From: Exiguobacterium acetylicum
GTDB taxonomy: Bacteria > Bacillota > Bacilli > Exiguobacteriales > Exiguobacteriaceae
DNA: 64,000 nucleotides
NCBI RefSeq assembly: GCF_022170825.1
Contig: NZ_CP081878.1
Location: 956,001-1,020,000, forward strand
Reading direction: 5' to 3'
The position numbers and the translations under genes were made by a program. A model generated the notes under the pieces. It worked only from the letters and a program-made list of their open reading frames with translations, did not search any database and was not told the origin of the DNA. This document shows, in pieces, positions 8,407 through 36,177 of the stretch (position 1 is the stretch's first letter; every line of letters begins with the position of its first letter).

Positions 8407-8985
8407 TTAATTCTTATTCCGCTCATAGCAAACGATCGACACACCGTTTTCAATCGTTTGGCGTTCCTTGACGTTCCACATGAGGGGAGTCATGCCTCGA
8501 TCAGGAAATAGACGTTTACCGGAACCGATGATGACAGGGTAGTGAATCAATCGAAGCTCATCAATCAAATCCGCTTGAGAAAGCGCATGAACGAGTTCAC
8601 TACTGCCCCAGACGTGAAATGGTGGACCGTCTTGTTGTTTCAAAAGCTCCAGTTCAGAGGCCGGTTGATTCAAATAGGTCGTCGGCTGCCAAAGGGCAGG
8701 TGGTGTATGACGCGTGGCGACATACTTCATAGCACGATTAGCTACTGGCCAGATATCGGCATGGAGTGGCCAATAACTCGACCATTGCTCGTATGTCTTG
8801 CGACCAAGTAAGAGGGAGCAGTCCTCATGCATCCATCCTCGAATGACCTGACCGATCTCAGGATGTTGAAATGGTGCAGTCCATCCACCATGCTTAAAAT
8901 CGTTGCTCATATCCTCCTCTTTGCCGCTCGGTGCTTGAACGACACCGTCTAAGGATAGATGTTCGAATACGATGATTTTTCGCAT
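8407..8985 (-). CDS. Dihydrofolate reductase family protein (RibD C-terminal-like)
   Basis: A 192-residue reductase-like protein of the RibD C-terminal/DHFR fold: N-terminus MRKIIVFEHLSLDGVVQAP, LLGRKTYEQWSSYW, and the C-terminal GSGKRLFPD region. Such proteins bind NADPH; the physiological substrate of this subgroup is not known. The start is set at 8985, where AAGGAGCT lies 5 nt upstream; the longer frame to 9036 lacks a ribosome-binding site. It is monocistronic and converges on spo0A. Confidence 0.85.
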   Translation of the reverse strand: MRKIIVFEHLSLDGVVQAPSGKEEDMSNDFKHGGWTAPFQHPEIGQVIRGWMHEDCSLLLGRKTYEQWSSYWPLHADIWPVANRAMKYVATRHTPPALWQPTTYLNQPASELELLKQQDGPPFHVWGSSELVHALSQADLIDELRLIHYPVIIGSGKRLFPDRGMTPLMWNVKERQTIENGVSIVCYERNKN

Positions 8986-9042
8986 ACACGAGCTCCTTTC
9001 GATTGTATTCTTCATACAGCATACCGTAGCGAGCAAAAAAGA

Positions 9043-9056
9043 TAAAAGCGTTTACA
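9043..9056. promoter_or_regulatory. Possible cre (CcpA) site upstream of the large RNA
   Basis: TAAAAGCGTTTACA matches the consensus TGWNANCGNTNWCA at 13 of 14 positions (A for G at position 2). It ends 8 nt before the -35 of the RNA promoter and also lies upstream of the divergent reductase gene, so either could be the target. Confidence 0.4.
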
Positions 9057-9064
9057 AATAAATA

Positions 9065-9092
9065 TTGCATAAACTGAAATGTTTGTTATAAT
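9065..9092 (+). promoter_or_regulatory. Strong extended -10 promoter for the large RNA
   Basis: TTGCAT (9065-9070), 16-nt spacer, TATAAT (9087-9092) with a TG extension at 9084-9085. Transcription is expected to begin near 9098-9100. Confidence 0.75.
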
Positions 9093-9097
9093 AAAGG

Positions 9098-9655
9098 TAC
9101 CAAATGATTTGGAAAGACGTCAGATGAACGTCGAGTCGACAAGGACTCCGGAAATCCTGTTGATGAACATCATCTCAGAACGCCAACTGTAAATGGCTCA
9201 AGAATGCCGGACGACATTCTCTTGGTAGAAGTCATACCAAGGTATCTTGTTCATTCTAGATGAGAAATCTCGAATGAATGGGAGCTTCCATGATTTCGAA
9301 GCTAGGGAAAAGTGGAAGGTAACGGATCGTCTAAAATGAAAAAGTACAGTTCGTGAAAAGGAGTGTTGTCTAGCAGTGATTGTTAGCAACCGAATGTTTG
9401 ACTGCTCCAAGCGGATGACATTACGCTCCACCTAGGTCCCGAGTACAGTCAGATGATGGAACTGAAACACCATTCTATCGTTAGCCCGATAGCCAGATCT
9501 GATTTCTTTCCACCTCTTCATTAAGAGGAACACCTAAGGTTTTGGAGTACACGAATAGTTCTAACTATGAGAGGAGTTCATCCGTAAGTGAAACCAATTT
9601 TATACGAGTAAAAGGTCCCGCGCTTGAAATGAGTTCAAGAGATGGGGACCTTTTT
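9098..9655 (+). ncRNA. Large structured non-coding RNA, about 557 nt, family not identified
   Basis: The stretch is delimited by a strong promoter and a strong terminator and contains no reading frame with a ribosome-binding site. Many local helices can be read directly: 9116-9120/9128-9132; 9136-9145/9155-9163 (nine pairs with one bulge); 9201-9206/9215-9220; CTTGGTA 9221-9227 with TACCAAG 9235-9241; 9250-9256/9272-9278; AGCTTC 9283-9288 with GAAGCT 9298-9303; CTATCG 9475-9480 with CGATAG 9487-9492; CCTCTT 9513-9518 with AAGAGG 9523-9528; ATAGTT 9555-9560 with AACTAT 9563-9568. It lacks the T-box, tmRNA or RNase P signatures I know. From memory, the OLE RNA of Gram-positive extremophiles is of similar size and lies near the same ispA/dxs/argR/recN/spo0A genes, so a divergent OLE-class RNA is the leading guess, not a proven assignment. 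Confidence 0.7.
9610..9655. terminator. Bidirectional terminator of the large RNA and of the DUF2627 gene
   Basis: AAAAGGTCCC (9610-9619) pairs with GGGACCTTTTT (9645-9655), enclosing an inner stem CTTGAA (9623-9628)/TTCAAG (9634-9639). A/T runs on both sides allow use on both strands; the minus-strand gene ends 7 nt beyond it. Confidence 0.85.
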
Positions 9656-9661
9656 CTGTGT

Positions 9662-9916
9662 TCATTTTTTTTGATAGCGGTCGGAGACTTTTCCACGTTT
9701 GCGATCGCGATAAAAGACATATCCTGCGACAAAACCGATGCCACCCATCGCAAGAATCAAACCGACGATACCTTGTAAGACATATACATATCCTGCATCG
9801 CCTAAGTATTTAAAGGGAACTTGAGCAATTAGAAATACGCTGTCGCGCATGAGTTTTATACCAATTGCACCGATGATACCAGGAATCAATAATGAGAGCA
9901 AACCAATGATACGCAT
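9662..9916 (-). CDS. DUF2627 family small membrane protein (YqzF-like)
   Basis: 84 residues with two membrane segments (about 3-22 and 43-66) and a basic C-terminus YRDRKRGKVSDRYQKK. The pattern LLSLLIPGIIGAIGIKLMRDSVF is that of the DUF2627 family, whose B. subtilis member YqzF is likewise next to the bkd operon. Function is unknown. It is divergent from bkdR and ends at the shared terminator of the large RNA. Confidence 0.85.
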   Translation of the reverse strand: MRIIGLLSLLIPGIIGAIGIKLMRDSVFLIAQVPFKYLGDAGYVYVLQGIVGLILAMGGIGFVAGYVFYRDRKRGKVSDRYQKK

Positions 9917-19744: not shown

Positions 19745-20038
19745 CAACTCAACACACGATAGCAAAGACGAAGAGAAGTAACTTGTGAAACGATTCAAGA
19801 GAGCTGATGGATGGTGCGAATCAGTATCGGGCAACAAGCGAATGGCCTTCTGAGCTTCAGACCGAATCCTTTAAGTAGGTAGTAGGCTCTGACGGGTTCC
19901 TCCCGTTATCGGGGTCGACGAATCAGGACAATGGTCCGGTTTGTTTCAAAGGGGACGGTGTCAGCATCGTCAACGAAGGTGGTACCGCGGGTCTTCCCGT
20001 CCTTCATGTTCTACATGAATGGGCGAGAAGACCCTTTT
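19745..20038 (+). promoter_or_regulatory. T-box leader 1 (tRNA-Trp specific)
   Basis: Stem I shows AGAAGTAA facing CGAATGGC, flanked by GAAG/CTTC and CTTGT/ACAAG pairs, which puts UGG (19843-19845) in the specifier position. The T-box sequence AAGGTGGTACCGCG is at 19976-19989. The terminator pairs GGGTCTT (19989-19995) with AAGACCC (20028-20034), followed by TTTT. Uncharged tRNA-Trp is expected to stabilise the antiterminator and allow readthrough. Confidence 0.93.
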
Positions 20039-20044
20039 CGTATA

Positions 20045-20334
20045 CAATCGAATCGAACAAATCGTAGAGTGAGTTAAGTAACGAGACAACATCGGCGTTT
20101 CAGAGAGCGGAAGAATGGTGCGACTTCCGTACGGCGAGGTTTCGTGAATGGTCTCATGAGAGCGTGGCTGAACGAAGAAGTAGGTCACGACGGATGCCCC
20201 CGTTATCGTAGGCTATGATGTCTCTTATTTAGACGCATCAGACAGAGTGGGAACGGTCGAACCGTTCCAATCGAGAGGTGGCACCGCGAGTTAATCGTCC
20301 TCCATGCAGCATACGCTGTGTGGAGGACTTTTTT
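20045..20334 (+). promoter_or_regulatory. T-box leader 2 (tRNA-Trp specific), in tandem
   Basis: A second complete T-box: TTAAGTAA faces TGAATGGT between the helices GTGAG/CTCAT and CGAGAC/GTTTCG, giving UGG at 20149-20151. The T-box sequence AGGTGGCACCGCG is at 20276-20288. The terminator GTCCTCCA (20297-20304)/TGGAGGAC (20321-20328) is followed by six T. No promoter is seen between the two leaders, so they act in series. Confidence 0.93.
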
Positions 20335-36046: not shown

Positions 36047-36065
36047 GGATTTGAATCGAATAATG

Positions 36066-36158
36066 ACCACTAGGGGAGTCGGTAGACCGACTGAGACGAA
36101 CGAAGACGTTCGGACCCTTTGAACCTGATTAAGTTCGTACTTACGGAGGGAAGTGGCG
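36066..36158 (+). promoter_or_regulatory. TPP (THI-box) riboswitch aptamer
   Basis: The conserved cores are present: CACTAGGGGAGTC, the CTGAGA loop (ACTGAGACGAACG), GGACCCTTTGAACCTGAT and GGAGGGAAGTGG. It senses thiamine pyrophosphate and controls tenA by termination. Confidence 0.97.
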
Positions 36159-36177
36159 TCAAGTCTTGTTCTTCTTG

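Follow-up and report, generated by a model that had tools for sequence, protein, structure and literature searches.

A stretch at positions 9098-9655 on the plus strand of the window (the whole 64,000-nucleotide stretch of Exiguobacterium acetylicum DNA analyzed here) carries an independent transcription unit composed of a promoter, a folded body and an intrinsic terminator. Our data point, with moderate confidence for the statement as a whole, to a stand-alone gene for a new, family-restricted large structured noncoding RNA that acts in trans, likely as the core or scaffold of a ribonucleoprotein. That this is a genuine structured RNA gene distinct from OLE RNA is, taken alone, very likely and, granted such a gene, the scaffold or ribonucleoprotein mode is rather probable. 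Computational analysis established conservation, synteny, a secondary structure with one pseudoknot, the lack of a common open reading frame and the absence of the OLE features tested; from these we infer transcription, action in trans and a ribonucleoprotein scaffold role. The locus combines what is expected of a large structured noncoding RNA, having its own transcription signals, no common reading frame and compensatory change in its helices.

The unit and its flanking signals are as follows.
9098-9655, plus strand: whole RNA gene, with a predicted transcript of ~555 nt and predicted 5′ and 3′ ends
9065-9092, plus strand: sigma-A-type promoter, with -35 TTGCAT at 9065-9070, a 16-nt spacer and an extended -10 TGTTATAAT that includes TATAAT at 9087-9092
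9610-9655, plus strand: intrinsic terminator AAAAGGUCCC...GGGGACCUUUUU, with an interrupted stem and T5 at the end

An earlier note on this DNA had proposed an extended -10 promoter and a strong terminator at these positions, and comparison with homologous loci bears out both: the promoter letters TTGCA and TATAAT are invariant in all 37 aligned loci, and the terminator ends in T5, keeps AAAAGGU, CUUGAAAUGA and UCAAG invariant across the same loci and lies in a stretch (9606-9655) with a folding energy of -20.6 kcal/mol (z -4.4). A simple promoter scan missed the promoter, whose TTGCAT agrees with the -35 consensus at only three of six positions, and a simple terminator scan missed the terminator, whose interrupted stem falls outside the limits of that scan. 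These signals suggest that the RNA would be transcribed as a discrete molecule from its own promoter. The body between promoter and terminator spans ~510 nt in the window, and the length before the terminator ranges from ~480 to 710 nt across loci. The terminator region (9610-9662) has A4 and T5 on either side and lies just ahead of the stop codon of a convergent gene, and with the A run before its stem it may also end transcription of that gene on the other strand. The hairpin inside it (CTTGAAATGA..TCAAG) hardly varies, beyond the apparent need of a plain terminator.

The RNA was found in all 38 genomes of the Exiguobacterium family by a family-wide DNA search. In a first set of 61 genomes it was present in 37, comprising every member of its own genus (19/19) and of a sister genus (18/18), and absent by DNA search from all 24 other members of the class. 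Similarity to the RNA of the window spans nearly the full length in all 37 extracted loci, split into two pieces in six of them. We built covariance models of a 5′ domain (R1) and a 3′ domain (R2). At the level of the order, where the 38 genomes equal the family in number, each genome had one strong R2 match, and the RNA has a single match in its own genome. Of 299 class genomes, R2 matched 27, every one of them a family member, and none of the other 272, and R1 matched one of 398 phylum genomes, its own, though both searches used stricter Infernal filters, with which very distant relatives may be lost. A core pattern occurred in 39 stretches among genome contigs, 25 of them from Exiguobacterium; the 14 others matched neither R1 nor R2 at E<=1 (positive control: a locus from E. 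sibiricum, L047), and we roughly estimate that ~14 matches to this pattern would be expected by chance. Viral contigs held no match to the core pattern, and plasmids held none to the RNA of the window. As far as searched, then, the RNA is confined to the Exiguobacterium family.

Weak second R2 matches (E 0.014-0.048) were seen in three genomes of the own genus (G001:C1:542658-542752, G016:C1:538733-538827 and G015:C5:134270-134364), with none at that level in the genome of the window; these are either chance matches or a fragmentary paralogue. In one genome of the sister genus, 31 bases at a second site (G027:C1:259054-259084) match the promoter and the first RNA bases at 90%.

The genomic position of the RNA is equally constant. 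In all 37 extracted loci it lies just upstream of a convergent DUF2627 gene on the opposite strand, with a sigma-54 activator gene beyond (both by family assignment), which we take to be yqzF and bkdR, respectively. Upstream, 36 of 37 loci have spo0A in the same orientation as the RNA, at distances of up to ~900 bp, and the block ispA-dxs-tlyA-argR-recN-spo0A is nearby in the window. Between spo0A and the RNA, the window has a gene with a RibD_C domain (8407-8994, opposite strand) that occurs in only nine of 37 loci; it was probably inserted recently, without disrupting the RNA. Among 30 yqzF loci from elsewhere in the class (the best 30 of 180 matching genomes, none of them from the Exiguobacterium family), matches to spo0A, yqzF and bkdR occurred together in ten, and the 30 loci gave no R1 match and a single R2 match (E=0.58), which is not convincing. 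Since the order spo0A/yqzF/bkdR exists elsewhere in the class with no convincing match to the RNA, its neighbor genes are ancestral. In the two of these loci whose reading frames we read (L113 and L123), the spo0A-yqzF interval (682-1416 and 761-1486, respectively) holds a gene that by eye resembles a glycerophosphodiester phosphodiesterase. The window also contains two tandem T-box leaders (19756-20007 and 20056-20305, 48 bp apart) and a TPP riboswitch (36062-36168).

Conservation of the RNA stands out against the divergence of its surroundings. Fourfold-degenerate sites are near saturation between the two genera (33% identical in bkdR, 31% in spo0A); homologous columns of the RNA are 62-65% identical in four cross-genus pairs, or ~30% if genus-specific blocks, which occupy separate columns, are counted as mismatches, and the RNase P RNA is 77-81% identical in four pairs. 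Invariant runs of at least five letters across the 37 loci include AAAAGGAGTGTTGTC (15 letters), TCTTCATTAAGA (12) and CTTGAAATGA (10), together with TCATCTC, TTCTTTC, TCATCCG, AGATGA and GGATG. We take this block conservation as a sign of purifying selection on a transcript. The two genera differ in architecture at 9221-9285 and at 9371-9412.

A linker within the RNA has been expanded by a tandem array of the AAGCAAGACC type in six loci of the own genus (L013-L018), with 7-18 unit matches in five of them and a diverged array in the sixth; the array in L017 counts 19.1 copies (1308-1498 of that locus), and the RNA body in these loci reaches 628-711 nt. In the E. sibiricum record, the spacing between R1 and R2 is ~195 nt longer than in the window. 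The linker repeat could be tolerated as a peripheral arm.

The structural model, given here by position in the window, joins local hairpins with long-range helices and a pseudoknot (sequence pairs in brackets are alternative forms of the same helix).
9100-9112, plus strand: P1 hairpin CCAAA/UUUGG, its inner pair A-U in one genus and G-C in the other
9116-9132, plus strand: P2 hairpin GACG/CGUC (AGCG/CGCU in the sister genus) with loop UCAGAUGAA; two pairs changed on both sides, paired in 37/37, with AGAUGA of the loop (9122-9127) invariant
9135-9164, plus strand: P3, a variable stem with a conserved CCGG loop and double changes within and between genera
9170-9176, plus strand: invariant UCAUCUC, with complementarity to AGAUGA in the loop of P2 (a hypothetical pairing)
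9182-9197, plus strand: P4 hairpin GCCA/UGGC (or GCUA/UAGC) with double changes, in one pair within both genera and in another within the own genus
9201-9220, plus strand: P5 hairpin AGAAUG/CAUUCU (or GAGGUG/CAUCUC), all six pairs in 37/37
9209-9214, plus strand: PK1 5′ strand, the P5 loop GGACGA, pairing with 9327-9332
9221-9285, plus strand: peripheral domain that differs by genus, with hairpins at 9221-9241 and 9250-9278 here and others in the sister genus
9286-9317, plus strand: P8, a long hairpin with conserved loop GAAGCUAG; inner four pairs in 37/37, and seven of ten pairs with double changes within a genus
9327-9332, plus strand: PK1 3′ strand UCGUCU, in the linker after P8, pairing with 9209-9214
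9333-9347, plus strand: variable linker, site of the AAGCAAGACC-type array, expanded in six loci
9356-9370, plus strand: invariant core AAAAGGAGUGUUGUC, the longest invariant block, which holds the Shine-Dalgarno-like AAAAGGAG
9365-9390, plus strand: hairpin GUUG(U)CUAGCA/UGUUAG CAAC of the own genus, with 71.8% of cells paired over both genera and a different pairing predicted in the sister genus
9413-9417, plus strand: invariant GGAUG, with a possible long-range partner CAUCC at 9579-9583 (helix predicted in the sister-genus fold)
9426-9437, plus strand: P10 5′ strand, partner of 9532-9547, with double changes between and within genera
9449-9502, plus strand: P11 (9449-9454 with 9497-9502) and an inner hairpin (9475-9492), three pairs with fixed double changes
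9504-9510, plus strand: invariant UUCUUUC, unpaired in the model
9513-9528, plus strand: P12 hairpin CCUCUUCAUUAAGAGG, one fixed double change and all pairs in 37/37
9532-9547, plus strand: P10 3′ strand, partner of 9426-9437
9577-9592, plus strand: P13 hairpin UUCA/UGAA (or AUCA/UGAU), loop UCCGUA, one fixed double change; holds invariant UCAUCCG at 9578-9584

The earlier note had described the stretch as structured, and both folding energy and comparison across genera agree. With its terminator the RNA folds better than chance (z -4.61), and without it six sequences, the window's own included, gave z of -2.05 to -3.58. Folds obtained within each genus and segments compared by eye were merged by hand into a single structure-guided alignment (36 distinct rows, 73 homologous pairs), and statistics from it, like the helix scan below, lean towards the model because structure was in mind when it was built. 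On this alignment 95.6% of cells were canonical; with partner columns re-dealt intact, the figure was 38.8% (maximum 52.3%). Double changes occurred in 39 of 73 pairs against a null mean of 8.5 (maximum 22 of 5000), many of them representing one event each, as only two genera are compared; the 13 pairs in which both positions carry fixed differences all stayed canonical. Two genus-specific helices (9249-9277 and one hairpin of the sister genus) lie outside the 73-pair count. On an unguided MAFFT alignment of 33 of the 37 loci, with a projected structure of 108 pairs, 84.3% of cells were paired versus 74.2% in shuffles and 34-45% with slid partners, and 50 of 108 pairs had double changes versus a shuffle mean of 36.5 (0/500 as high) and 8-17 for slid partners; further pair types (103) did not exceed those of shuffles (105.0; 397/500 as high).

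A helix scan of the merged alignment placed P5, which had the most double changes, P10, P2 and PK1 at ranks 1-4 of 37; rank 5 (9217-9220 with 9305-9308) and, in the own genus alone, rank 2 (9400-9403 with 9538-9541) lie outside the model. Five of the six PK1 pairs form in 37/37 loci and the sixth in 28/37, with double changes in three; the unguided alignment, in which the genera are not aligned at these columns, showed no double change in PK1. P3 is paired in 28-37 of 37 cells per pair on the merged alignment and in only 56.1% of cells on the unguided one, and the single-sequence minimum-energy fold lacks it, though the alignment supports it. The covariation test on orthologous spo0A-bkdR regions that the earlier note had suggested yielded compensatory changes that keep the helices and mostly negative mutual information. 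Against a simulated phylogeny, mutual information gave no pairs in the sister genus and two in the own genus (E<=0.5), one of them non-canonical; on the merged alignment it gave 0/72 proposed pairs with a uniform null and 6/72 with a rate-weighted null, and its top two pairs lay outside the model. This weak signal probably reflects data that consist of two clades. Three further pairings (AGAUGA with UCAUCU, GGAUG with CAUCC, and CGGA in the P3 loop with UCCG in the P13 loop) form no part of the model because invariant columns cannot covary and, by a rough estimate, matches of this length do not clearly exceed chance.

The earlier note had offered two identities, a divergent OLE RNA in an unusual setting or a distinct large RNA, of which our data support the latter. 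The two RNAs are alike in being large (OLE is ~600 nt), with many helices and conserved loops, in belonging to Bacillota and in having ispA, dxs, argR, recN and spo0A within ~10 kb; here the whole block ispA-dxs-tlyA-argR-recN-spo0A is nearby. That the host genus is known from extreme habitats, as the abstract of PMC10837837 states, also speaks for OLE. However, the search with the OLE covariance model (RF01071) that the note had proposed gave no match at E<=10 in 8950-9750 or in the whole genome, and a search of the homologous loci L019, L020 and L032 with Rfam at E<=5 did not bring up OLE. By a search with the stricter Infernal filters, OLE RNAs scored 451.6-578.5 bits in 68 of 299 class genomes (gathering score 50 bits), with two more weak matches (22.9 and 21.2 bits), so that OLE presence in the class is nearly all-or-none; none of these 70 genomes belongs to the Exiguobacterium family. 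OLE RNA is membrane-localized and binds OapA, OapB and OapC. The absence of the OLE partner OapA, which the note had remarked on for the window, extends to all 19 genomes of the own genus, with positive controls working; a single query found OapA in none of three family genomes (one from the sister genus) versus four of four OLE genomes.

The locus differs as well. In the two OLE loci that we read (L086 and L092), by eye and position, OLE lies between an ispA-like and an OapA-like gene, in keeping with the usual place of OLE between ispA and oapA. Our RNA does not occupy this place: ispA and dxs are adjacent in the window (ispA ends at 2290, dxs starts at 2408), and their 117-bp gap leaves no room for an insert such as OLE. 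The shared gene neighborhood is most likely ordinary synteny rather than an OLE site. The 81 7-mers conserved in 12 OLE sequences and the 46 conserved in the 37 RNA loci have none in common, one conserved 6-mer (GATGAA) is shared, and nhmmer found no match between OLE and the RNA in either direction. With covariance model, partner, locus and conserved blocks all failing, we reject OLE identity; this reading, almost surely wrong, is already refuted at the levels of sequence, partner and locus tested, and only a common three-dimensional fold could revive it.

Other catalogued families fared no better. Rfam at E<=10 and ARAGORN found no T-box, tmRNA or RNase P in the RNA stretch, in agreement with the earlier note, and RNase P RNA lies elsewhere in all six family genomes tested, the window's own included. 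The remaining Rfam matches in the region were three at chance level (a miRNA, a snoRNA and a lncRNA, E 7.9-9.9), and the three homologous loci gave three at E<=5 (E 0.47-1.9), far below gathering and all outside the RNA. Matching no family tested in sequence or structure, the RNA probably constitutes a new family.

The note's statement that the stretch lacks a credible reading frame held for the nine sequences (of 37) whose frames are listed, with two partial exceptions: no frame is common to both genera, the longest frames vary by species, and a simple pattern search found nothing resembling a Shine-Dalgarno sequence for any of those listed. A small conserved protein encoded by the RNA would explain the invariant Shine-Dalgarno-like AAAAGGAG, the frame start MF(V/G)IIKVPN common to four listed own-genus sequences and the similar FDFTMDG stretch that ends frames in four of five listed sister-genus sequences (L025, L030, L032 and L035). 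Yet the own-genus frame begins inside the promoter, ahead of the predicted transcript start, and varies from 37 to 83 aa; the FDFTMDG stretch is missing from the frames listed for the own genus and L020; no listed frame has a Shine-Dalgarno-like match; and compensatory changes follow helices. We consider an mRNA extremely unlikely. Only slightly less so is a cis-regulatory leader or 3′ UTR element, such as a riboswitch or attenuator of a neighboring gene. That the RNA follows spo0A in the same orientation in 36/37 loci would fit such an element, but the RNA has a promoter and terminator of its own, spo0A lies up to ~900 bp away with the opposite-strand RibD_C gene between them in 9/37 loci, and downstream yqzF comes first, in the opposite orientation, and bkdR begins only 385 bp beyond the terminator (as measured in the window).

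A doubtful, though by no means far-fetched, alternative is a multi-hairpin regulatory RNA that acts mainly by base pairing with mRNAs, in which exposed UUCUUUC, a CUUC hairpin or the Shine-Dalgarno-like AAAAGGAG would mask or mimic ribosome-binding sites. Its model would be RNAIII of S. aureus, which we take to be a stand-alone multi-hairpin RNA of ~500 nt and thus similar to the RNA here in build and size; unlike RNAIII, our RNA has no Rfam match, no consistent open reading frame and no agr genes among the neighbors identified. The invariant blocks, among them UUCUUUC, rich in pyrimidines, and AAAAGGAG, rich in purines, are compatible with mRNA pairing, but structured loops and the pseudoknot are conserved and internal helices are kept despite near-saturated silent sites, and a mainly antisense regulator would presumably need such structure less. 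We prefer a ribonucleoprotein core to an antisense regulator because the loops, the pseudoknot and the long-range helices P10 and P11 have all been kept, while antisense action needs mainly seeds. As a ribonucleoprotein core, the RNA would start at its own promoter, stop at its own terminator and fold into a set of helices (P1-P13) that one or more pseudoknots hold together and in which evolvable helices would hold the invariant segments AGAUGA, UCAUCUC, AAAAGGAGUGUUGUC, GGAUG, UUCUUUC and UCAUCCG. These segments may contact protein or RNA partners, and the folded RNA would act in trans, most likely as the core or scaffold of the complex; the AAAAGGAG block could conceivably contact the 3′ end of 16S rRNA. 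The neighboring genes do not point to a partner, as the spo0A-yqzF-bkdR loci outside the family (10 of the 30 yqzF loci read) had no convincing match to the RNA.

According to PMC11332333, bacteria have few large noncoding RNAs, and where a function has been established the task is a major one. The nearest published analogy that we saw, in size and obscurity, is a 520-nt lncRNA of Lactobacillus salivarius, which the abstract of PMC5643018 describes as megaplasmid-borne and present in 34 of 45 genomes of one species. Like the RNA here it is lineage-restricted, ~500 nt long and of function not known; unlike it, the RNA here is in 38/38 family genomes and syntenic in 37 loci rather than megaplasmid-borne and strain-variable. 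GOLLD and ROOL, introduced in the abstract of PMC12286853 as large ornate bacterial RNAs, share its large size, but our RNA has no Rfam match at E<=10 and no viral-contig or plasmid match, and it is fixed beside yqzF in 37/37 loci. Our literature search found no paper on a structured noncoding RNA or an OLE RNA of Exiguobacterium, and papers on Exiguobacterium small RNAs, Rfam families and intergenic transcription, most of them surveyed by title and PMC5399880 by passages, gave no pointer to this one. The available passages of a study with bulk prediction of Exiguobacterium small RNAs (PMC10837837) name no such RNA, and a term search in the main text of two surveys of structured RNAs (PMC8632094 and PMC11109978) found no mention of Exiguobacterium. 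As a kind, the RNA joins the large bacterial RNAs of role not known.

These results caution against naming an RNA OLE by its neighborhood, as a large RNA of another kind can occur in this gene block too. A family-wide RNA of ~0.5 kb that is syntenic and has no Rfam match and no outside relative found offers a clean new target: with a fixed locus, a short gene and its own flanking signals, deletion should be easy, and the two diverged genera supply ready-made compensatory variants for structure probing. For the family itself, a bolder and unlikely reading of the sequence data is that the RNA may be an essential or near-essential, family-wide ribonucleoprotein core, possibly catalytic and retained in all examined species of a genus reportedly found from permafrost to hot springs, that would have arisen on the family's branch at the site where the two other class loci read (L113 and L123) have the glycerophosphodiesterase-like gene.
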